Source: Chloroflexota bacterium (GTDB taxonomy: Bacteria > Chloroflexota > Anaerolineae > Anaerolineales > Villigracilaceae). From it: a DNA stretch of 64,000 bases. Below, one piece after another: positions 2,164 through 12,460 of this stretch. A program made the position numbers and the translations under genes. Location of the stretch: positions 1 to 64,000 of the forward strand of contig JAJYLQ010000009.1 in NCBI GenBank assembly GCA_021787595.1, given 5' to 3'. Position 1 is the first letter of the stretch; each line of letters starts with the position of its first letter. Under the pieces are notes generated by a model that saw nothing but the letters and a program-made list of their open reading frames with translations, had not been told where the DNA came from and did not search any database.

Positions 2164-2895
2164 TTATACCTGACCCCATGCGAAGTACGTCGGCACGTTC
2201 AAGGTGCGTGTGCCGCGCGCCCGCGCTTCCTCATCCAGATGTTTCATCTTTTGGATTTCTTCCCGCGGGACGAATCCCGATAGATCTGATTCGATCACAG
2301 CCCATTCATTTTTCCATTCGCCAGGATCCATCGCTTCGGGGCTTCGACGTTGGATGGCTCCCGTTTCGACGATTTGGATTCCGGCCCGGTGGAACAGTCC
2401 CGCCAAACGCTCGCCGAGGCCGATGTCCGCGCCCTGGCGTTTCAACGCTTCGGTCTGCCACTTTCCAAGCGCGGCAAGTTGACCGGGTTGATCTTCGCGG
2501 GACGTGTAATCCGGCTCGGCAAACGCGAGGATGTGACCTTTGGGTTTTGTCACGCGTTTCATTTCAAAAATTGCCTTCAATGGTTCTTTGATCCATAACA
2601 AAAGAAAGTGGCAGTAGGTGATATCGAAACCTCCGCTTCGATAAGGAAGATCACGCGCGTCGCCGCGCGTCAGGCGGGCGTTCGATGCGCGGAAGCGGCA
2701 GCCGGCCAGCGCGCCCGCGTCGAGGTCGAGGCCGTGCAGCGCCGCCGGCGTTTGCAGCGAGGATAAAATCGCGCCCGTCCCGCATCCGACTTCAAGAACG
2801 GAATTTGCGCCGGATAGTCCCGCCTGCCGGAAAAGATACTCCCGCAGATCGCGCGTCCATGCCGCCTGCTGGGTATAGCGTTCGTGCCAATTCAT
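2164..2895 (-). CDS. Class I SAM-dependent methyltransferase
   Basis: A 243-aa Rossmann-fold methyltransferase. Motif I, VLEVGCGTGAILSSL, lies at about residues 33-47, the acidic loop (HGLDLDAGAL) follows, and the post-I motif ARDLPYRSGGFDITYCHFLL is present. The substrate cannot be read from the sequence; it resembles the broad UbiE/COQ5-like group (Methyltransf_11/25). It lies just upstream of lepB on the same strand with a 23-nt gap. Confidence 0.88.
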   Translation of the reverse strand: MNWHERYTQQAAWTRDLREYLFRQAGLSGANSVLEVGCGTGAILSSLQTPAALHGLDLDAGALAGCRFRASNARLTRGDARDLPYRSGGFDITYCHFLLLWIKEPLKAIFEMKRVTKPKGHILAFAEPDYTSREDQPGQLAALGKWQTEALKRQGADIGLGERLAGLFHRAGIQIVETGAIQRRSPEAMDPGEWKNEWAVIESDLSGFVPREEIQKMKHLDEEARARGTRTLNVPTYFAWGQV

Positions 2896-3167: not shown

Positions 3168-4205
3168 CTACGGATTTGCGGCGCACAGGTTTGTCAAAAT
3201 CTGCTGGCGCAGTCGGACGAGTTCGGGAAACTGGTAAAAGAATTTTATTTTTTGATCGGCAATGCTGCTGCCTTTTGGTTCGGGACTCAAGATGTAGTAT
3301 GCCCATGTTTCCGCGATATCTTCCGATGGATCGGTCACGGCATAATCGTCAATGAATTGCTCCCGATACTTCCTGTAAAAAGACTCGAGCCGGTTCTCGC
3401 GCTTTTGATCATTTTCGATGTCATCAATTTTCTGCCATTCGGCGTAAATGTCCGTCCAGAAACGGTCGAAGAAAACATTGATGTAGGAATTCGCCAGGCT
3501 GCAGCCTTCGCCTGGAAAATACGTTGAACAGGCGTTGACTTCCTGGTTGTAGATATCATCGTTCGTTGGATTGTCGAACACTTTCAGATCGGGCGGCACC
3601 TGCGATGGATTGAGCGTAAGCAGGTGCCCGAATTCGTGGAGCATGGTGAAAACGAGATCCTTGGTATCGGGCGCATCGGCGATATCCACTTCGAGCATCC
3701 ATGAATTGGGATCGAAAGAAGATTGTTCGACCGCGCCGAGAACGCCGCCCTGGCCGTCGGTGATGATCTCATATTGGCGCACGATGGCGCGTTGGTCCGG
3801 CGGGATGATCGCCGCGAACAAATCCCAGCTTTGTTTCTGGAGCTTGTAATCGTCTTGATACCTGATCAAATTGCGCGGGACTTTTTCCAAAATCGGATTG
3901 GCGATCTCATTGCCGCTGACGGTGTAGATGACCAGCGGAATATCGGACTGGTCGCCGGTGTCCACGCTGGGAAAACTGCTTTGATAAGTCGAGTTGTTGG
4001 CTGCGTCGAGGATGGAGGATGTTTCTGCCGGGCACGAATCGGATGCCTGACTGGTCGCAGTCGGCGAGGCGGGAGCGGGGAACGTCGCTGCAGATCGCGC
4101 GGGCGGGACCGGCGTATCGCCGGAGATCAGGCGCGTGGCGGCGCGGCAGGCCAAAGTCGAGGCGAGAACGAGGACCACAAACAAGATGACGCGGGAGCGT
4201 CCCAT
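3168..4205 (-). CDS. Secreted lipoprotein, HEFGH putative zinc metallopeptidase (paralogue 1)
   Basis: The 345-aa protein starts with a lipoprotein signal (lipobox STLAC, about residues 16-20), so it should be anchored outside the membrane. A low-complexity Pro/Ala/Ser linker follows. The core contains LHEFGHLLTLN, a zincin-type HExxH helix. Downstream, DPSEDIAETWAYYIL supplies a plausible third ligand Glu. It is a tandem paralogue of the next upstream gene, with the same HEFGHLLTLN and EDIAE blocks. The substrate is unknown. I start at the ATG of MGRSRV because it gives a proper signal peptide. Confidence 0.8.
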   Translation of the reverse strand: MGRSRVILFVVLVLASTLACRAATRLISGDTPVPPARSAATFPAPASPTATSQASDSCPAETSSILDAANNSTYQSSFPSVDTGDQSDIPLVIYTVSGNEIANPILEKVPRNLIRYQDDYKLQKQSWDLFAAIIPPDQRAIVRQYEIITDGQGGVLGAVEQSSFDPNSWMLEVDIADAPDTKDLVFTMLHEFGHLLTLNPSQVPPDLKVFDNPTNDDIYNQEVNACSTYFPGEGCSLANSYINVFFDRFWTDIYAEWQKIDDIENDQKRENRLESFYRKYREQFIDDYAVTDPSEDIAETWAYYILSPEPKGSSIADQKIKFFYQFPELVRLRQQILTNLCAANP

Positions 4206-4283
4206 GCGGTTAGGATACCATAACGTTTCTATGGAGGCTTGTCTCAATATCAATTTGTAACGAGCGCTTTTCGCGGGGCGGTT

Positions 4284-5363
4284 TCATTGCCCGGATGCGG
4301 AAGCATAATTGCAAATTCCATTCACCATTCGAATGCGTAATTGCACCAGGTCGGGGAGTTCGTAGAAGAACAGCATTTTCTCGTGCGCGATACTGTCGGC
4401 GGGCGGCCTGGGATTCAGGATGAAGCGGGCAAAACTTTCCGCGATGTCTTCCTCCGGGCTGGTGGCGGCGTACGTGCTGACGAATTGGGTCGGGTGCCGC
4501 TCATAAAAATGAGCCAGGTTCGCGAAATAATTCTTTTGGTCTCTTTCCGCGTTGACCTGGCTCCACTCGTTGAACAACTTGACCCAAAAGAACTGGAAGA
4601 ACTCGTTGATGTACGAATTGGGATGGCTGCATCCGACAGTCGTGAAGTATTGCGGACAACTGGCGGCTTCCTGCTGATACACTTGCAGGCTCGGGTTGGC
4701 GAGATACAACGGGTCGGGCGTGACCTGTGTGCCATTCAGAGTCAGCAAATGGCCGAATTCGTGCGCGAGGGTGTAGGTGAGATTGATGGGCTTCGTGGCA
4801 TCCAGGGGGTCCACATTCAAGGCCCAGTGCTGAGGCTGGTTGGAAGATTCCTCCACGCTTGCGAGCATGCCGCCTTTGCCGTCAGTGGAAAGAATGAAAG
4901 CAGTCAATTCCGTTCTTTGGTTCGCGGGAACCATCGCGGTGAAATAATTCCAGATGCGCTGCTGGGAAACTGCATCCTGCTGGTATGGAATCAGGTCGGA
5001 CGGAATATTCGAAGCGAATCTTGGAGCGCTGAGCTGGTCGCCCTGGACCAAATAACTTGCCAGCGTTGTGGCGTGGGTCTGCGTGCCGTGAGGCGCGGCG
5101 ACTTCCGGCGGCGATAGCAGCGCCGAATTGGTTTGGAGGATGGAATTTATTTTCGCCAGGCACGCGTCCACGCAATCTCCGTCCGGGCAGACAAGCGGCG
5201 GCGTTGGGGATATTTGCGCGACGGGAATGGGTGTTGGGCTGAGGAATGAATTTGTTGGCTGAATGGGTATCGTTGGGATGGAACCGATAAAGCTCAACAA
5301 CACCAGCATCATGAGCGCAAGCGAAATAAGGAGCGCTGCCCATATAGGCAATCTGGTTTTCAT
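4284..5363 (-). CDS. Secreted HEFGH putative zinc metallopeptidase (paralogue 2)
   Basis: The 359-aa protein has an N-terminal hydrophobic signal/anchor (about residues 9-27) and a Pro/Thr-rich linker, but no lipobox cysteine. It shares the core of the neighbouring paralogue: IPYQQDAVSQQRIWNYF, LAHEFGHLLTLNGTQV with HExxH, the conserved Cys-containing QEAASCPQYF...GCSHPNSYINEFF block, and SPEEDIAESFARFIL with a possible third ligand. The two genes are about 80 nt apart in the same direction and probably co-transcribed. Predicted location is outside the membrane. Confidence 0.8.
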   Translation of the reverse strand: MKTRLPIWAALLISLALMMLVLLSFIGSIPTIPIQPTNSFLSPTPIPVAQISPTPPLVCPDGDCVDACLAKINSILQTNSALLSPPEVAAPHGTQTHATTLASYLVQGDQLSAPRFASNIPSDLIPYQQDAVSQQRIWNYFTAMVPANQRTELTAFILSTDGKGGMLASVEESSNQPQHWALNVDPLDATKPINLTYTLAHEFGHLLTLNGTQVTPDPLYLANPSLQVYQQEAASCPQYFTTVGCSHPNSYINEFFQFFWVKLFNEWSQVNAERDQKNYFANLAHFYERHPTQFVSTYAATSPEEDIAESFARFILNPRPPADSIAHEKMLFFYELPDLVQLRIRMVNGICNYASASGQ

Positions 5364-5541: not shown

Positions 5542-6021
5542 TTAGTTTGTTGTTACCAGCCTGAATACCGGATATTCCGATGCTATTTTTTCGAACTCGG
5601 AAACCGGCGCATCCCTGCTCACCGGTATGTGCGGACGCGCTCCGGGCGCAACCTGCAGATACGCCTTCAAGATCGGCGCTCTCTCCTCGACAGGTACTTC
5701 TTTTAGAATCACCTGTTCGCTTATTCCATGTCGAAGCGTCACTCTGCCGCCCGCAGCTTTAACATTTCGTACCCAATTTGCTTCCTCTCCCAGCATGGAC
5801 ACCAAATATCTTTCTCCGTTCATTGATGTCATCGCAAGCGGGAAACTTATTATTTTCCCCGATTTTCTTCCCGCCACTTCCAGCGTGACGAAGCTTTCAG
5901 GTAATATCCCTGACGAGTGAAGGATTGCCCAGAACCGATTTTGTATTTTTGCCAACGTATTGGGTTGGCCGTCGCGATATTCCCATCTTTTAAAGCCAGC
6001 GAAAATGCTCGACATTTTCAT
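5542..6021 (-). CDS. Deazaflavin (F420)-dependent nitroreductase-family protein
   Basis: The 159-aa protein matches the DDN/DUF385 split-barrel family. It has the central stretch FVTLEVAGRKSGKIISFPLAM followed by GERYLVSMLGEEANWVRNVKAAGG, the family's usual cofactor-binding signature. Family members bind coenzyme F420 or FMN, or act on quinones. F420 use here is inferred from the family only; no F420 synthesis gene is in the window. The start shown avoids an 11-residue extension that overlaps the upstream gene. It may be the last gene of the radical SAM operon. Confidence 0.82.
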   Translation of the reverse strand: MKMSSIFAGFKRWEYRDGQPNTLAKIQNRFWAILHSSGILPESFVTLEVAGRKSGKIISFPLAMTSMNGERYLVSMLGEEANWVRNVKAAGGRVTLRHGISEQVILKEVPVEERAPILKAYLQVAPGARPHIPVSRDAPVSEFEKIASEYPVFRLVTTN

Positions 6022-6029
6022 ACTGCCTC

Positions 6030-7160
6030 TTACTTCTGATAAATCTTCCCCCATGGATCGCGCAACAAGTTGCCCAGAATTTTATCTGCCGCGCCCTGTG
6101 TCGGAAGGACATCGCCATCCGGCTCGACATATAACCACGCCTTTCCGGCTCCAGCCGGGACTTCATCTTCCGCTGTTTGATGCGCGACCGGATTCTCCGC
6201 TGAATACGGAACCGGCAAATCCCAGCGGAGGGTCATTCCAAGAGATGCGGCAGTATTGTGCAGACCGTGCATGGCGTCATGCAGTGAGGCGTCGGATGCG
6301 CTCAACGAAAGGCTCTTGACGCCAAGTTCGGATAACCGGCTGAGAGTCTCTTGCGCGCCTTGCGCGTTTTGCGGCGTCAGCGTGAAATGCGCTGTGACAA
6401 AAATATCTTCGGGCATGATGGTTTCGAGCGCTTTCCAGGAATCGTTGTTATCGGGTTGGAGCAGGAAGAGAATATGATCAAGTCCGGTCTTCAACAACGA
6501 CTCGAGATAATTTTTATCGGCGAGTTTCAAACCATCGGTCAGCAGCCCGCAGACCTGGCCGTTCTTCTCGGCGCACGCGATCAGATCGGTTAAGTCGTCA
6601 CGCAGAGTCGCTTCGCCGCCGGTAAACGTGACGTGTGGGATTCCAAACTTCCAGGCGTTATCGAGGATGGCGCACCATTCGTCAGTGGTCAGTTCGCGGT
6701 CGACGCGTTTGGCCGGCGCGTAATCGGCCTGCGTCCCGGCGGGGAGGCGATAGGTCAGCGCGCAGTCGAGTCGCAAGGGAGCGGTGAGATCGGTCGAATG
6801 GGGCGCGACCCGCTCAAAGTCGAGGTAGGAGACGGGATCCAAATCCGTCGCGGTCACCAGTCTTTGGATCCGCGCGGCGAAGTCGTTGTAATCCTGCAAT
6901 GCAATGCTTTTCTTGATTCGGTAACGCGAGGCGACTTCCTTCGCCGCGTCTTCGGGCGCAGCGCCTTTGATGAAGTGATAGGCGAACTCAGCCGCCGTCG
7001 GATTCAGATGCAGAACGGTCGAGGCGTTGACGATCAACACGCCGGAGCTGTCAGGCTGCAATCGCAGGTGAATACGGTAGGGAGGTTGTTCCTGCGGCGC
7101 GGATTGTTTATGATAAATGCCGGATTGAATCGGTTGGACTTTCGTAAAGAGTTTTTTCAT
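6030..7160 (-). CDS. Radical-SAM-like pseudoenzyme lacking the cluster cysteines
   Basis: The 376-aa paralogue of the radical SAM protein at 8587-9975 has the same order. There is a PqqD-like N-terminal domain (LIVNASTVLHLNPTAAEFAY) and then the barrel with its second-strand motif HVTFTGGEATLRDDL. Where the paralogue has TYRCNNDCAHC, this protein reads TYRLPAGTQADY. All three cysteines that would hold the 4Fe-4S cluster are gone, and no SPASM cysteines follow; the C-terminus ends VEPDGDVLPTQG.... The reading frame is intact, so it is probably a regulatory or substrate-binding partner. GGAGGG lies 5 nt before the chosen ATG. It overlaps or abuts the preceding gene. Confidence 0.8.
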   Translation of the reverse strand: MKKLFTKVQPIQSGIYHKQSAPQEQPPYRIHLRLQPDSSGVLIVNASTVLHLNPTAAEFAYHFIKGAAPEDAAKEVASRYRIKKSIALQDYNDFAARIQRLVTATDLDPVSYLDFERVAPHSTDLTAPLRLDCALTYRLPAGTQADYAPAKRVDRELTTDEWCAILDNAWKFGIPHVTFTGGEATLRDDLTDLIACAEKNGQVCGLLTDGLKLADKNYLESLLKTGLDHILFLLQPDNNDSWKALETIMPEDIFVTAHFTLTPQNAQGAQETLSRLSELGVKSLSLSASDASLHDAMHGLHNTAASLGMTLRWDLPVPYSAENPVAHQTAEDEVPAGAGKAWLYVEPDGDVLPTQGAADKILGNLLRDPWGKIYQK

Positions 7161-7171
7161 GGTGCCCTCCA

Positions 7172-8194
7172 TCAACGTAATCGGAATATGCCGGATTCGA
7201 GAAAGAACAAAATGAAATAGCCGATCAGCAGGACGATCCAGCCCGCCAATTCGACGCGCTCCATCAGGCCCTGCCAGGTGAGCGAGAAATTTTCCTGAAT
7301 GGTTTGGATGATGCCTTCCAGATTATCGAGTTTGCCTTTGACCGTTTCCTTCCATCCGTTCAAATAAAATTCTTCGAGGATGGCGTGATAAAGCTGTGAC
7401 GTGTACCAATCGCCGATCAACAGCAGATTTTGTTCGGTGTGTTCGAAGTCGAGCATCAAGTCGAGGCGATGCTGGACGATGCGGCGGATCTGGCTTCGCG
7501 TCGGACCGATGCGGCGCGGGTCGGCGCGGAATTGTTCGTTGAGATCACGCAAGCTCTTTTCGATGTTCTGGTCGAGCCTGCGATAACGCATGAGCTGATA
7601 GTTGCCGATCTTCAACAATTCGATGTCCGATTGAAAATCGCCGTCCGGCGCGATGATGATCGCGGCCTGCCAATCTACCAGCGTCAGGTCGTCTTTCGAA
7701 TAGCGCACTTGAGAACTGAGGATGTCTTTTATCTCGCGCTGGTCGAACGTCTCGCGCTGTGAGCGGATGAAACGCGCCAGCGCAGCCGCGTTCTTGTCAA
7801 TAAATTTATCGGGCGTCGGCGTCGCTTTTTTGAGCAGAAGAATGTAGTACTCCTCGAACATGCCGCTTTCGCGATGCTCGGCGGGGACGAATTTTTCCTG
7901 CAAGGATTTCTCGATGGAGGCGCGCTGCTGGATCGCCGCGAGACTCAGCACATCGTCCAGCATGAAGCGGCATTCGACCATTTGGATTCGGTCATCGTAC
8001 CTTTGCCGCGCGACGGAAATTTGTGCGCCTCTCGCCTCGACTTTAGCCTGCTCGAGCGTTCTGACGGAGATGTCCACCGGCTGGAAGTACGGCGCGTCCT
8101 TCAGGCCGCGAATCTGTTCGGGCGGCTCGTTGGATGCTTCCGCGTGATCGGGGAAAGCCAGCAGGTAGCAAATCTCAGCGTTTTTCAAAGGCAT
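7172..8194 (-). CDS. C-terminally membrane-anchored protein of unknown function
   Basis: The 340-aa protein is largely helical and charged. One predicted membrane segment lies at the very end (about residues 316-335, LAGWIVLLIGYFILFFLESG), preceded by a coiled-coil-like stretch. This order (soluble domain, long helices, terminal anchor) recalls the DUF155/RMD1 family, but I see no decisive motif. It lies between the PAS gene and the cysteine-less radical SAM gene with almost no spacing, so it likely belongs to the same operon. Confidence 0.7.
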   Translation of the reverse strand: MPLKNAEICYLLAFPDHAEASNEPPEQIRGLKDAPYFQPVDISVRTLEQAKVEARGAQISVARQRYDDRIQMVECRFMLDDVLSLAAIQQRASIEKSLQEKFVPAEHRESGMFEEYYILLLKKATPTPDKFIDKNAAALARFIRSQRETFDQREIKDILSSQVRYSKDDLTLVDWQAAIIIAPDGDFQSDIELLKIGNYQLMRYRRLDQNIEKSLRDLNEQFRADPRRIGPTRSQIRRIVQHRLDLMLDFEHTEQNLLLIGDWYTSQLYHAILEEFYLNGWKETVKGKLDNLEGIIQTIQENFSLTWQGLMERVELAGWIVLLIGYFILFFLESGIFRLR

Positions 8195-8211
8195 GTTCGG
8201 TAATCAAATCA

Positions 8212-8559
8212 TCAAGATCGAACGAAGTGCGGCACCTCGAATGGAATCTCAAGTGACAGTTCGACGAAGCCGGCATATTTTCCGTCTTTGAACCACGGCG
8301 ATTGAAAGATCATTTTCTTCACGCCATTCTTCTCGATGGTGTAAACATTTTTCTCATGCGCAGCCAGCAATTGTTCGACTTTCTCGCGCGCTGCCTCTTT
8401 ATCCTTGTGACAATCGCGAATGTTCCTGCCGATCAATGCGTAACCGCCGCCTTTCTCGTATGTTTTGGCGGCCTTGTCGTTCATTTCGAGAATGACGCCG
8501 TCCGCATCGCAGACGGTGACCGCCGCGGGGAATTCCTTGATCCAATCGTGTTGACTCAT
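8212..8559 (-). CDS. Single PAS-domain protein, 115 aa
   Basis: The whole protein is one PAS fold. FPAAVTVCDADGVILEMNDKAAKTYEK is the typical first strand and helix, GRNIRDCH follows, and the C-terminal strands read KKMIFQSPWFKDGKYAGFVELSLEI. No output domain is fused, so it must act through a partner or simply bind a ligand or cofactor. It sits directly downstream of the radical SAM/SPASM gene and may sense redox state or a small ligand for that system; this role is inference. Confidence 0.85.
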   Translation of the reverse strand: MSQHDWIKEFPAAVTVCDADGVILEMNDKAAKTYEKGGGYALIGRNIRDCHKDKEAAREKVEQLLAAHEKNVYTIEKNGVKKMIFQSPWFKDGKYAGFVELSLEIPFEVPHFVRS

Positions 8560-8570
8560 GTTCTCTCCGG

Positions 8571-8659
8571 TTGAAGGTTTGAAGGTTCAAAGTTTGAAGG
8601 TTGCTGCTGTGGACGGAATTTGACTTGCAGCTTGCAAACCTTCAACTTGAAACTGCAAC
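8571..8659. repeat. Palindromic repeat family G, copy overlapping the 3' end of the radical SAM gene
   Basis: Alternating GTTGAAGGTTTGAAGG and AAACCTTCAACTTGAAAC arms form an imperfect hairpin that crosses the stop codon of the radical SAM gene. It supplies the enzyme's last 20 or so residues (starting FQVEGLQ). A related copy at 38857-38938 lies inside argS, in the same reading frame (FQVESLKVEG). Confidence 0.7.
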
Positions 8660-9975
8660 GGGCATCCGCCGCCACATTCCAGCGCGAGCGAACAGCCACT
8701 GCACTTCGCAGGCAAATTCTGCCGCTCGCGCAGTTGAACCGATAGTTTGTGATTCCAAATCGAATCCCATGAATCGGTCAGCATATTGCCAAGCGGATGA
8801 TAATAAGACTGGCACGGCAAAACATTTCCATTCGATTCGATGCACATGCTGTACAGCGCGGCGGTGCAGCCTTTGACGCCGAGATTATTTGCCGTGGGGT
8901 CGAACTGGCAATATTGCGTCGGCGTGTACCAGATGAGTTTCTGTCCGCGTTCGGCGGTTTTGCGCGTGGCCATGTCGAGGATGGGTTGCAGTTCGTTTTC
9001 TTTGAGTCCGGTACCAACGGTTAGAGCGTGACCGGAATAGATCAGCGCATTCAATCCAATGGTCGGCACGCCAAGGTCGGCGAGGAAATCCAGGGTGTCA
9101 GGAATTTTGGGAACATTGGTTTTCAGCATCGTGGTGTTGGTCATCACATACAGCGGACTGGCGAGCGCGTTCTTGAGTCCGCGAATGGTTTGCTTGAACG
9201 CACCCTTTGCGCGCATCATCTCGTCGTGGATTTGCTCATCGCAGGATTCGACCGTGATCTGCACATGATCGAGTCCGGCGGCGATGAGTTGCTGCAAATA
9301 TTTTTCATCAGCCAGGCGGCGGGCGTTGGTGTTCAAGCCTGTGATCTGTCCGTTCGATTCGGCGTGGGCAATCAACTCCGGCAGGTCATTTCTCAGCGTC
9401 GCTTCGCCGCCGGTGAAGACGATGTGCGGCACGCCCAGCTCCCAGAGCTTGTCAATGATCTTGAACCATTGCTCCGTCGTCAGTTCCGGGAAGTTTCGTT
9501 CGCGGGCGTTGTAGCAGTGGGCGCAGTCGTTGTTGCAGCGATACGTGACGGCCAGATCCATTCGATATGGCGCGGACGGCCGCGCGCTGAACGGCATGGT
9601 CGTGTCCAAATCAAGCTCGTGGATGGGGCAGGCGCCGTCGGGACGAATCAATTCGGTGAGTTGAAAGTGAAAAGTAGAAAGATCGTCTCGCAACTGCCCG
9701 CTCTCCACTTTCCACTTTTTGGAGCAGTTCTTGAGAATCTCGTCATCACGCTTTCCCTCCAAAATCATCCATGCCATAAAAGCCGCAGTCGGATTCAGGT
9801 GCATGACGCGGTTGGCGTTGACGATCAACGTGCCGGTGCCATCGGGATCAACGCGGAGATGAATGCGCGATTTCTCGTCCGCGTCCTGGCGGGTGTAATG
9901 ATAAAGACCGGAGGATGGTTCGTGGGTCATGGAGAATGGAGTCCAGATTGTTTTAAGCGAATCAATAAAAGTCAT
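8587..9975 (-). CDS. Radical SAM/SPASM peptide-modifying enzyme with PqqD-like N-terminal domain
   Basis: The 462-aa protein has three parts. Residues about 37-110 form a PqqD/RRE-like domain (LIVNANRVMHLNPTAAFMAWMILEGKRDDEIL), the fold used by RiPP enzymes to hold precursor peptides. Residues about 140-340 are the radical SAM barrel with CNNDCAHC (Cys147, 151, 154) and FTGGEATLR. The C-terminal SPASM region has CTAALYSMC, ESNGNVLPC, CSGCSLALEC and GGGC, enough for auxiliary clusters. The gene directly upstream encodes a membrane protein with a Cys-Ala tail, the natural candidate substrate. Residues about 86-106 and the extreme C-terminus are encoded by palindromic repeats. Confidence 0.9.
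   Translation of the reverse strand: MTFIDSLKTIWTPFSMTHEPSSGLYHYTRQDADEKSRIHLRVDPDGTGTLIVNANRVMHLNPTAAFMAWMILEGKRDDEILKNCSKKWKVESGQLRDDLSTFHFQLTELIRPDGACPIHELDLDTTMPFSARPSAPYRMDLAVTYRCNNDCAHCYNARERNFPELTTEQWFKIIDKLWELGVPHIVFTGGEATLRNDLPELIAHAESNGQITGLNTNARRLADEKYLQQLIAAGLDHVQITVESCDEQIHDEMMRAKGAFKQTIRGLKNALASPLYVMTNTTMLKTNVPKIPDTLDFLADLGVPTIGLNALIYSGHALTVGTGLKENELQPILDMATRKTAERGQKLIWYTPTQYCQFDPTANNLGVKGCTAALYSMCIESNGNVLPCQSYYHPLGNMLTDSWDSIWNHKLSVQLRERQNLPAKCSGCSLALECGGGCPLQFQVEGLQAASQIPSTAATFKL
9661..9720. repeat. In-frame palindromic repeat within the radical SAM gene
   Basis: Inverted segments of the type AAAGTGGAAAGTGGAGAG and CTACTTTTCACTTTCAAC flank a short centre. They encode residues about 86-106 (KKWKVESGQL...STFHFQL) at the end of the PqqD-like domain, without breaking the frame. 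The cysteine-less paralogue has a different, non-repetitive sequence at this position. Confidence 0.6.
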
Positions 9976-10020
9976 CTCGCGCCTTCAATCATAAATCGTC
10001 AATCTAAAATCGTAAATTGA

Positions 10021-11694
10021 TTATCGTCCGCCCCCCGCGCAGGCGCAGGCGCAGCCGGCGCACGCGCAGGCACAGGCGCAGCCGCCGCCACCGCCGCCGC
10101 GATAGCCGCCAGTCGAGGGCGGAGGCGGAGGATTCGTCGCATTGGTCACGCGGCTGGTGAAGGAGTTCAAGTTGCCAAGCACATTGCCCGAGAAGGTTTG
10201 GACTCCTCCGACGACGGATGCCGCGAAATCCGCGCCGGGCAGCGCAGAAGAAGATCGTCCGCCAGTTGGCATGGAGGCCGGCACGGCGGCGCCGGTCATT
10301 GCCGGGCCGGGACGATACATCGGGTCGTAGCTTCCCCACCACATCGGGACAAAGATCGGTCCGGTGAAGACACGCCGTGAGCGTTGATCGTAATCGTGGT
10401 CGAGCATCGTCCATTCGAGATTCTGATCGAGCAGCTGCCCCTTCACTTCGGGCGTCTGCGCGGTTTCAACCTGCGACCAGGCCTGTTCCATGATGTTCTT
10501 GTAATAGTCCTGCGTCTCCCTGCGGCTGAAGCCCTTCATTTTTTCGCCGACGGATTTGACCAGCGCAATGGTCATATTTTGCAGCGCGGTCTGACGAGCG
10601 CGGATGTCGGCAAGTTTGAACGCGCTCAGGAAGCTGATTTCATAATCATGCAGACCTTCGGGCTGCGGTTCGGTAACCTTGACGTTGAGCGGATCGCGCG
10701 AAACGACGGTGGCCGCGCCTTTCTTGATCGCGCCGAACAGGATCATGGTCATGACCTTATCGAGCGGCTGTTCCATCAAGATGGCGGCTTCGACAGCGGT
10801 CAAACCGCGCTTGATGCCGTGGCCCTCGATCCCAATTTTGGGCGGGATGTATTGCAGTTTGCGCCGCTGTCCCTGAATGGCGCCAATGATCGGCAAGCCG
10901 ATGAACATGAACGCGAAAAATCCAAAGCAAAGGATGTTTCCGAGGCCGGCGATCAGGAAGGAGAAAATGCCGCCCAGCACATCAAAGATTGACGTTTGCA
11001 CGATGGCGGAATCAGGCACGTAGCTTTTCGGGAAGGACGCGCCGAATGTGTATTGTGTGTATGCGTTGGCGCCGGCTGATTGCCATGTGTACGTGACGCG
11101 GTTCTGCGAATCGATTCCAGTCTGCGGCTGGGATGCGAATCCGGATGGCGATGAATGCCAGCGCGGTTCGTTTGGCTTGACTCCCGGCGGCAGATGGAAC
11201 GTAACGGTCAAATCGGTATTACCGGACACAGAATGCGAATCGAAATAGGTCGGCGCGAAATCGGCGCTGGCGTACGTGTTGTCGCTGGTATCCGGATACA
11301 AAACGCCCGCGATGCTCCCAATGTAAACGTGAACTGACCCGCTCGCGCCGGGTTGGATGGTGTATTGTCCCATCACAACGGCGAAGCCCGAACCGTTTCC
11401 CTGGTAATCGCTTTGCGAAACATCAACGTTATTGCCGTTCACGTCCGCGGTGACGGTACTCATGTTGAAGCTGCCGTTCGGCATGCCCACGTCAACAAAA
11501 TCAATCGGATGCGCGCCAGGCTGGTTCGTGAAGTTGAACGTGTATTCCAGCGATTCGGTGCCATCCGCATTCCAATAAACGTTGACGACTTCCTTGTCCA
11601 CGCTGAAGAGATACGAACCTTGCGCCAGTGCGCTGGCAGGCAGAGCCAGCCCAATCCAAAAAATGAATAGAAAAATGGAAATACGTCGAAGCAT
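10021..11694 (-). CDS. DUF2207-like membrane protein with a Cys-Ala repeat tail
   Basis: The 557-aa protein has a signal peptide (cut near ALAQG, residues 23-27) and an extracellular beta-rich domain (about 30-230). A membrane segment lies near residues 245-272, and a cytoplasmic region follows (KIGIEGHGIKRGLTAVEAAILMEQPLDKVMTMILFGAIKKGAATV). This is the general layout of DUF2207 proteins, which usually end in plain Gly-rich tails. Here the end is Gly-rich and then CACACACAGCACACA plus GGGR: four Cys-Ala units, a Gly, three more Cys-Ala units. Seven closely spaced cysteines next to a SPASM radical SAM gene suggest post-translational crosslinking; this is inference. Confidence 0.85.
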   Translation of the reverse strand: MLRRISIFLFIFWIGLALPASALAQGSYLFSVDKEVVNVYWNADGTESLEYTFNFTNQPGAHPIDFVDVGMPNGSFNMSTVTADVNGNNVDVSQSDYQGNGSGFAVVMGQYTIQPGASGSVHVYIGSIAGVLYPDTSDNTYASADFAPTYFDSHSVSGNTDLTVTFHLPPGVKPNEPRWHSSPSGFASQPQTGIDSQNRVTYTWQSAGANAYTQYTFGASFPKSYVPDSAIVQTSIFDVLGGIFSFLIAGLGNILCFGFFAFMFIGLPIIGAIQGQRRKLQYIPPKIGIEGHGIKRGLTAVEAAILMEQPLDKVMTMILFGAIKKGAATVVSRDPLNVKVTEPQPEGLHDYEISFLSAFKLADIRARQTALQNMTIALVKSVGEKMKGFSRRETQDYYKNIMEQAWSQVETAQTPEVKGQLLDQNLEWTMLDHDYDQRSRRVFTGPIFVPMWWGSYDPMYRPGPAMTGAAVPASMPTGGRSSSALPGADFAASVVGGVQTFSGNVLGNLNSFTSRVTNATNPPPPPSTGGYRGGGGGGCACACACAGCACACAGGGR

Positions 11695-11763: not shown

Positions 11764-12162
11764 TTACCACTTTGGTTCTTCAGTTAACTGATACGTTGTT
11801 CCGCAGAATGGACATTCGACCATCGGCGCTCCGGCTACCATTTTGATGTTCTCCGGTTTCAATGCGCCGCCGCAATTCCGGCAGGTGACTTGCGAGATTT
11901 TGGTGTCGCCAGGCAAATCCACTTTCATCGTGACCTGCTGGACGACTTCTGTTTTTTGTCCGCGTATCCCGGCATAGACCAATCCCGCGCCGCCTGCCAA
12001 GAAGAGGACACCCACGCATCCAAAGCCGAGGCCGAATGTGAGCCAGCTTTGGCTGCCTGTCGGCGCGGTGGAGCCGATCGCATAAAATCCGCCCAATACA
12101 ACCAAGCCTAAGCCAAAGAGAAATAAGATTCCTGCGCCGATGTATAACAAGGTTTTGCCCAT
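11764..12162 (-). CDS. Small membrane protein with C-terminal zinc ribbon
   Basis: The 132-aa protein has two predicted transmembrane helices (about residues 5-27 and 40-65). A cytoplasmic zinc-ribbon-like end follows, with VTCRNCGGALKPEN and ECPFCGTTYQL (two CxxC pairs, 25 residues apart). AGGAGG lies about 9 nt before this ATG, which decides against the longer reading. It precedes the DUF2207-like gene on the same strand, separated by a repeat. Function unknown. Confidence 0.8.
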   Translation of the reverse strand: MGKTLLYIGAGILFLFGLGLVVLGGFYAIGSTAPTGSQSWLTFGLGFGCVGVLFLAGGAGLVYAGIRGQKTEVVQQVTMKVDLPGDTKISQVTCRNCGGALKPENIKMVAGAPMVECPFCGTTYQLTEEPKW

Positions 12163-12460
12163 GAGACGAAGCCTCCTGAAGAAGGTATACGAAGAGTCTA
12201 GCATTTTCGTTTTCGCTGGGCAAATGACATTTGTCTCAATTTCTTCCTGTTTTTATCTGAATTTCGAAAGCCAGGCAGCAGGCTGATTGGGCGGCGCAGC
12301 CGCACAGATGCTTCGAGGCGATATTCCGCTGACGCCCGCGATCCCGATCCATCCGGATGAATCATCGCCATCGCCAGCACCATAATCAATAACATCCATC
12401 TAAATCCATCCATCGCAGTTCACTGCTTGGGTTAAAGTTTGGCTGTATACTTATACAAAT

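Follow-up and report, generated by a model that had tools for sequence, protein, structure and literature searches.

Radical S-adenosylmethionine (SAM) maturases of ribosomally synthesized and post-translationally modified peptides (RiPPs) have been described chiefly for small peptides that are secreted or act as signals, and the substrates of the sactipeptide and enteropeptin maturases are small peptides as well. In the present work, two adjacent genes, A and B, were analyzed in a 64,000-nucleotide stretch of a Chloroflexota bacterium (assembly GCA_021787595.1, contig JAJYLQ010000009.1, positions 1 to 64,000; hereafter, the window). Here, the apparent substrate is the fixed, predicted cytosolic end of the large membrane protein A, which is unchanged across bacterial phyla and Asgard archaea. 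The radical SAM enzyme B probably modifies this Cys-Ala repeat tail, thioethers being the likeliest chemistry. The nearest published idea, which has the same form, is that of TIGR04222 and MNIO: in PMC12452194, some TIGR04222 membrane proteins with Cys-rich tails are predicted to be substrates of MNIO (DUF692) enzymes. Both cases combine a membrane protein, a C-terminal low-complexity tail of Cys, Gly and Ser, and a genetically linked iron-dependent peptide-modifying enzyme. In contrast, the enzyme of the window is a radical SAM protein, and both the tail and the taxonomic range differ. According to the same article, the TIGR04222 tail is predicted to be periplasmic, whereas that of A is predicted to be cytosolic, and the C-proximal Cys is missing from more than a quarter of TIGR04222 proteins. 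A general scan of nine window genes recognized no MNIO (DUF692), no search aimed at MNIO having been made. In the open-access literature, with subscription papers and preprints outside the coverage, no description of an A/B tail system was found, and the tail modification is apparently undescribed.

Among radical SAM systems, SkfB and CteB share with B the architecture of a RiPP recognition element (RRE), a radical SAM domain and a SPASM/Twitch domain (PMC6231123). As with the sactipeptide maturases SkfB, CteB and RumMC and the enteropeptin maturase, the proposed action of B is on Cys, and Ala is a possible acceptor, as in ruminococcin C1. Unlike in sactipeptide systems, the core would be the tail of a large membrane protein with 5–13 Cys residues in short repeats, occurring in bacteria and Asgard archaea. 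The His-Xaa-Ser system (HxsA/B/C) likewise combines a repeat-bearing substrate with a radical SAM enzyme (PMC9062424), and one of the tail types described below, CHSA, holds His and Ser. The ACGX system was compared by its NCBIfam name only, which suggests repeated Ala-Cys. Unlike HxsC, HxsC4 and ACGX, B and its counterpart in CHSA loci, B2, score far under the cut-offs of these families.

In the window, A, B, C, D and E are minus-strand open reading frames (ORFs) transcribed in this order, with intergenic gaps of 45 nt (A–B), 27 nt (B–C) and 17 nt (C–D) and a 4-nt overlap of D and E. A reading of the letters alone (the sequence-only reading) had described five same-direction ORFs with small gaps, the first ending in seven Cys-Ala units; the coordinates, the exact count and the C-terminal position were all confirmed. 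Gene A (10021..11694, minus strand) encodes a protein of 557 aa with a hydrophobic N-terminus (probable signal peptide), a beta-sandwich ectodomain, one transmembrane (TM) helix, a cytosolic domain, a leader-like helix and the Cys-Ala tail. The tail CACACACAGCACACAGGGR (residues 539–557; 10024..10080, minus strand), the proposed core and substrate, has exactly seven Cys-Ala units (four, Gly, three) at the extreme C-terminus of A, ...GGGGGGCACACACAGCACACAGGGR, and closes in GGGR. Gene B (8587..9975, minus strand) encodes the proposed tail maturase. The doubled CACACAG pattern has one match in the window and none in 100 dinucleotide shuffles.

The tail is highly conserved. Among 61 genomes near the window, including the window genome, 48 match B at E 1e-30, some only via gene E. 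The 51 regions around these matches contain 48 A-like ORFs in 45 regions, and 43 of the ORFs carry the tail (CACACACAGCACACAGGGR in 27, CACACAGCACACAGGGR in nine and small variants in seven). The remaining five ORFs comprise two short homologues that lack a tail (L071, L073) and three pieces that are broken or cut by a contig end. While whole A drops to 40–84% identity with the window protein, the tail stays fixed, and in a cross-phylum, tail-selected set the last 17 residues are invariant in 59/59 A members. In a set of 64 tails (full-length tailed A from the first 80 loci plus the window), all 64 DNA sequences are distinct: 10.3 of 17 codons differ synonymously per pair, with no amino-acid change. 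Third bases are free, yet only synonymous change is seen; therefore, the constraint is on the protein. Low-complexity Gly tails are frequent in DUF2207 proteins, which would suit a functionless chance repeat, but the occurrence of one and the same peptide in bacteria and in Asgard archaea, encoded by codons that vary only synonymously, refutes this explanation.

The distribution of the tail follows that of A and B. In 301 genomes of the window's phylum, the A profile matches 20 genomes and the B profile 22, namely the same 20, G031 (only E) and G178 (only B2). The doubled tail occurs in exactly the 20 genomes having A and type-1 B (the enzyme of CA-tailed A) and in no other of the 301, so that the co-occurrence of tail and enzyme which the sequence-only reading had put forward as a check was indeed found. 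Single copies of CACACAG occur at 11 places in the 301 genomes, none of them doubled; the reversed pattern, used as a control, was found in 14 genomes. The presence of the tail on unrelated proteins was rejected: at nine of the 11 single-copy places, inspected by eye, no ORF ends in a Cys-Ala tail. Viral contigs gave 0 matches to the tail pattern.

A tail-pattern scan of GTDB genomes yielded at least 119 loci, and the counts and titles that follow hold among the matches listed. Most loci belong to Anaerolineae/Chloroflexi. The ORF is present in 118 of 119 loci; each of these 118 matches the A profile and has GGGR as its last residues. In 103 of the 118, B lies on the same strand within 700 nt downstream; of the remaining loci, three are cut by the locus end and 12 have no B there. 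The genomes of nine of these 12 loci were searched, and B was found in all nine, either on another contig (L183, L184, L199, L200, L223, L238) or within about 4 kb on the opposite strand (L179, L186, L232). In L261, B is also about 4 kb away on the opposite strand. In L234, B adjoins A directly, past the edge of the locus. Titles outside Chloroflexota are carried by 31 tail loci. The bacterial ones are Sabulitectum, Hyd24-12, Fermentibacteraceae, Aegiribacteria, Aminicenantes, Acidobacteriota, Thermoanaerobaculum, Zixiibacteriota, Coatesbacteria, Edwardsbacteria, Cloacimonadota, Chrysiogenales, UBP2 and Geohydrothermomicrobium, and the archaeal ones are Hod-, Heimdall-, Loki- and Sigynarchaeota. 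Bin contamination is possible in single metagenome-assembled genomes; the archaeal genes nonetheless group together. Carriers among named strains are Bellilinea caldifistulae GOMI-1, Levilinea saccharolytica KIBI-1, Ornatilinea apprima P3M-1 and Leptolinea tardivitalis YMTK-2. Over the 48 loci in which both proteins are full length (64 of each), the distances of A correlate with those of B (r 0.896), and 0 of 2000 permutations reach this value.

Separate branches of the enzyme correspond to at least three types of tail, the third of which rests on two enzymes. In 148 Asgard genomes searched with a tail-free A profile, 52 matched: 29 with type-1 A and 23 with distant A2 proteins of about 700–800 aa, aligning only over the TM and the cytosolic part. 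The type-1 A has a visible C-terminus in 25 of the 29 genomes and carries a CA tail in all 25 (including CACACACACACAGGGR and CACACACVSCACACAGGGR), and CHSA repeats were found in 20/20 A2 proteins fetched, of 23. Type-1 B is present in 28 of the 29 genomes with type-1 A; B2 is present in 21 of the 23 A2 genomes, and a 22nd has a B2 start at a contig end. In the window's phylum, G070 and G178 contain CHSA-tailed A2 adjoining B2. A search with B only, in 396 genomes of the phylum to which an Aminicenantes genome belongs (including an Acidobacteriota-titled one), gave 33 matches, with a tailed A beside 28 of the 30 fetched. The tails of these 28 loci are CA in 17, CHSA in eight and of a third kind, CACACVSCACACACAGGGG followed by 18–22 residues, in three. 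In a tree of 88 enzymes, which omits enzymes shorter than 380 aa or below 250 bits as well as three duplicate entries, all 19 CHSA-adjacent enzymes belong to a single clade of 24 (support 1.0), from which type-1 and type-3 members are absent. Next to this clade, the two type-3 enzymes form a pair (support 1.0). The other five enzymes of the CHSA clade, including L360, L430 and L434, have no tail protein in the locus stretch; the genome of L360 has a CHSA tail on another contig (L361). This agreement of branch and tail type bears on the idea of an unmodified tail whose Cys or Cys/His array binds a metal or an iron-sulfur cluster, B acting elsewhere on A or on another molecule. The CxC arrays and CHSA repeats resemble metal ligands, and the product of gene Z, upstream of A, has a zinc ribbon; but a bare metallothionein-like tail needs no RRE-SPASM enzyme tracking the tail type so closely, and the near-invariant Ala and GGGR would be unneeded. 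Metal binding by an unmodified tail is therefore regarded as very improbable.

According to Pfam, B contains Radical_SAM (97.3 bits), SPASM (PF13186, 39.7 bits) and PqqD (23.8 bits, just above the 23.4 cut-off) domains, and its description in the sequence-only reading as a SPASM radical SAM enzyme with a PqqD-like N-terminus holds. The AlphaFold2 model of B (predicted local distance difference test score, pLDDT, 89) shows RRE-like elements, four strands within 23–60 and three helices, in the N-terminal domain (about residues 22–110; 9646..9912, minus strand). A PqqD match was obtained with 2.2e-9 in B2 of L351 and was absent in B3 of L426. In the [4Fe-4S]/SAM motif CxxxCxxC (CNNDCAHC; 9514..9537, minus strand), C147, C151 and C154 are invariant in alignments of 23 and 48 B proteins; the SPASM cysteines C356, C370, C388, C425, C428 and C434 are also invariant, and C438 nearly so. 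B thus has the CxxxCxxC motif, the RRE/PqqD-like domain and the SPASM cysteines of RRE-containing SPASM RiPP maturases and, beside it, a Cys-containing candidate substrate, the tailed A. Judged by its families, B would be a peptide maturase acting on the A tail. Foldseek placed SkfB nearest to B (E 1.2e-18), followed by SuiB and CteB, with BlsE and PqqE also near; the profile search gave SkfB (1.4e-28) and PqqE (5e-28). Membership in a named NCBIfam radical SAM family was rejected for B (best score 134.2 versus a cut-off of 381.35, PqqE) and for B2 and B3 (128.7 versus 500 and 128.6 versus 381.35), in each case among the best 25 listed.

Action of a radical SAM enzyme on the tail, as the sequence-only reading had suggested, is supported because A, type-1 B and tail share 20 of 301 genomes, because B is present in 9/9 searched genomes lacking an adjacent B, and because the enzyme branch matches the tail type; the fold supports it as well. 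The further suggestion of that reading, a crosslinked tail forming a structural, metal-binding or redox surface, would go beyond this support. B could also modify the tail otherwise, by beta- or gamma-carbon thioethers (as in ranthipeptides), by Cys oxidation or desulfurization, or by His or Ser crosslinks in CHSA tails, a possibility that overlaps with the core interpretation. The enzymes near B in profile or fold (SkfB, SuiB, PqqE, anSME, BlsE) catalyze very different reactions, and the CHSA repeats place His and Ser at fixed positions. However, a sactisynthase is the top relative of B by both measures, and Cys and Ala are the residues common to all tail types; a different chemistry is thus considered rather unlikely.

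The AlphaFold2 model of A (pLDDT 85, predicted template modelling score 0.48) contains a long helix at 236–280 that includes the TM, a cytosolic domain at about 300–456, which may be winged-helix-like, by family resemblance, and a disordered tail. The leader-like region (residues 485–526; 10117..10242, minus strand), located ahead of a Gly-rich linker and proposed as the RRE-binding site, includes helices 487–505 and 509–520; its mean column identity is 0.59 versus 0.28 in the linker preceding that region. This region may act as a leader within A, its helix being bound by the RRE of B. The tail is predicted to be cytosolic, on the side of B, because the net charge is higher after the TM in 56/59 cross-phylum A members; an AxA motif is found in 32/59. 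The Gly-rich linker before the tail could also suit a model in which A is a carrier and the tail is cut off after maturation and released as a peptide or cofactor, like pyrroloquinoline quinone or mycofactocin. B resembles PqqE, and the stretch of the window between the operon and the methyltransferase gene M includes two genes for putative metallopeptidases. As a carrier, however, A would be a large membrane protein with conservation in its other domains as well, and no conserved protease or exporter was recognized in the loci inspected, with no search aimed at either; release of the tail is therefore improbable.

In the mechanism proposed for modification of the tail by B, A would be a membrane-anchored substrate with the ectodomain exported, one helix in the membrane and the Cys-repeat tail in the cytosol. 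B would recognize A, probably via the conserved helix ahead of the Gly-rich linker, and modify the repeated Cys residues. The likeliest product would be a series of sactionine bonds, thioethers that join the sulfur of Cys to the alpha-carbon of an Ala, each costing 2 Da; in the simplest version, each Cys would form a six-membered thiomorpholinone with the preceding Ala. In type-1 loci, M would then methylate the tail or another part of A, and maturation would leave A, at the membrane, with a cytosolic tail that is rigid, covalently folded and poor in thiols. Here, we only infer the bond type, the part of M and the role of the mature tail. Within the last 70 residues, Ala precedes Cys in 715/989 cases in type 1, 303/351 in type 2 and 15/28 in type 3, a count from which only identical proteins were removed. 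Since the Ala-Cys dipeptide is common to all three tail types, Cys-to-Ala thioethers appear likeliest. According to PMC12395415, Ala12 is a sactionine acceptor in ruminococcin C1, and the enteropeptin thiomorpholine is a six-membered ring of Cys and the residue before it (MKGOCPPS); a thioether to deuterated Ala is on record in PMC8188230. The ring between Cys and the preceding Ala, taken alone, can be suggested only tentatively. Equally speculative is the wider proposal of a conserved protein modification of bacteria and Asgard archaea rather than a natural-product pathway, consisting of a rod of Ala-Cys thiomorpholinone rings (CA tails) or Cys-Ala loops (CHSA tails), followed by methylation in type 1. 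If modification of the tail by B is confirmed, it would be a widespread protein modification. It is directly testable, as several carriers are named strains and the repeat gives the modification count by mass.

Gene M (2164..2895, minus strand) encodes a class I SAM-dependent methyltransferase (Pfam Methyltransf_11, 7.2e-18). Counting only loci with enough flank, M is present in 63/88 type-1 loci (L032-L245) with at least 2.5 kb downstream, in 28/37 type-1 loci with at least 6.5 kb downstream and in 5/12 Acidobacteriota-type loci; it is missing from 3/3 type-3 loci. The relatives', tail-scan and B-only locus sets share genomes, and the pooled M and Ala-Cys counts are thus not independent.

Several observations weigh against modification of the tail by B as proposed. 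Linkage and shared ancestry make the co-occurrence less than independent, and the tail itself served to select the 59- and 64-member sets, which makes their invariance partly a matter of construction; the sets not selected by the tail are the 301-genome phylum profiles, the Asgard profile search and the B-only search of 396 genomes. L269 and L282 have the tail without B within the locus stretch (locus only). CHSA-tailed A2 with no B2 found occurs in G491 (2.58 Mb contig in a 2.6 Mb assembly), and type-1 A with no type-1 B found occurs in G377. Conversely, the Asgard genomes G393, G412, G418 and G400 have type-1 B without detected A, and G470 and G431, also Asgard, have B2 without detected A2; G470 carries a short A2-like N-terminal fragment near B2. 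The B-like genes of L430 and L434 belong to the CHSA clade and lack a tail protein in the vicinity. The sharing of Ala-Cys by all tails is in part a consequence of the repeats as such, and M is missing from 9/37 long type-1 loci, 7/12 Acidobacteriota-type loci and, in two sets, 20/20 and 6/8 type-2 loci. As for G491 (L339), a near-complete Asgard genome, either loss of B2 or a different maturase can be supposed.

The sequence-only reading had called A DUF2207-like. Window A has no DUF2207 (PF09972) match in Pfam, nor has the window's genome, and 0/59 cross-phylum type-1 A members match DUF2207 at E 0.1. The likeness persists as remote homology: hhalign of tail-free A (23 sequences) with the DUF2207 proteins of relatives gave a probability of 98.8% and E 1.4e-16 over 359 columns, spanning the signal peptide, the ectodomain and the cytosolic domain. 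The CHSA-tailed type-2 A of L351 passes the DUF2207 cut-off (25.5 versus 24.4). TIGR04222 matches are weak (8/59 A members, best E 3e-4, none in window A; cut-off 43 bits), and in the type-2 A of L351 the match (22.8 bits, residues 279–383) is below the cut-off. The view of A as an ordinary DUF2207 or TIGR04222 protein was rejected, since window A matches neither over the cut-off and shows remote homology only. Knock-out of a DUF2207 gene in Streptococcus mutans has reportedly been published. The statement that DUF2207 tails are plain and Gly-rich was borne out among 17 DUF2207 loci of relatives (two overlapping in one gene): 13 have a Gly-rich end, with 0 Cys in the last 60 residues in 13/13, unlike the Cys-rich tail of A. 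Among the remaining four, two extend past the locus end, and the other two lack a Gly-rich tail and have 3 and 1 Cys.

Fold comparison with whole A, covering mainly the ectodomain (residues 26–227 in the model; 11014-11619, minus strand), showed similarity of the ectodomain model to the second beta domain of eukaryotic Ost1/ribophorin I (Z 17.4, 183 residues, 2.7 Å); the N-domains of M1 aminopeptidases scored clearly lower (Z about 12). The Ost1-like ectodomain, together with A homologues in 52/148 Asgard genomes (23 of them aligning without the ectodomain), is a possible lead on the origin of Ost1.

The order of minus-strand genes in the window is Z, A, B, C, D, E, an F420-dependent reductase-like gene (5542-6054), two metallopeptidase genes and M. 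The tandem putative zinc metallopeptidases (361 and 359 aa; 4284-5363 and 3168-4253; Peptidase_Mx, below the cut-off) thus occupy 3168-5363 between the operon and M. Gene Z (11764..12204, minus strand), directly upstream of A, encodes a small TM protein with a C-terminal zinc ribbon ending in W; a Z-like ORF upstream of tailed A is found in 45/48 tail-selected loci, 10/26 Acidobacteriota-type loci and 5/38 loci of L300-L367. Z and M, absent from the sequence-only reading, recur with type 1. Gene C (8212..8559, minus strand) encodes a single PAS-domain protein matching Pfam PAS_4 just above the cut-off (24.3 versus 23.1), and gene D (7172..8194, minus strand) a protein with a C-terminal membrane anchor and no Pfam family over the cut-off; both are accessory and variable. 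Gene E (6030..7175, minus strand) encodes a Cys-less radical SAM paralogue (pseudo-enzyme), the proposed non-catalytic partner. The earlier assignments of C as a PAS protein and of E as lacking CxxxCxxC stand, but C, D and E were rejected as core parts, being missing from many relatives (in the relatives' loci, C is present in 19, D in 12 and E in 43 of 51).

E matches Radical_SAM (36 bits) and, only under the cut-off, PqqD (16.9); CxxxCxxC is missing from 44/44 E ORFs, a few being fragments. In a 77-sequence enzyme tree without Acidobacteriota-type enzymes, E is monophyletic. Assignment to a named NCBIfam family was rejected (best 70.7 versus 381.35, among the best 25 listed). E resembles the TIGR04347 pseudo radical SAM/SPASM proteins in being a Cys-less radical SAM homologue; unlike them, it scores 45 bits versus a cut-off of 525. 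E was found in 0/31 tail loci with titles outside Chloroflexota, among the matches listed, and in none of the Asgard stretches examined; L444 has one Cys-less relative (Ex type). E may help in substrate handling. In G031 (L077 2598-3743), E occurs without detected A or B, and its neighbours look by eye like leucine biosynthesis genes.

Pairs of active and Cys-less radical SAM proteins also form a Bx/Ex cassette (L072, L074, L075, L444). This cassette accompanies an A with the tail CACACAGCACACACAGGGR in L072, L075 and L444, A being cut in L074; M adjoins it in L075 and L444, and a C-terminal extension is present on the Bx enzymes of L072, L074 and L075. In L071 (7102-8112) and L073 (6323-7195), Bx-type enzymes precede a short A-like protein that has no Cys tail and ends in NDIRRTTFFG or NDITRTTFYG, a tailed A with E being located elsewhere in the genome.

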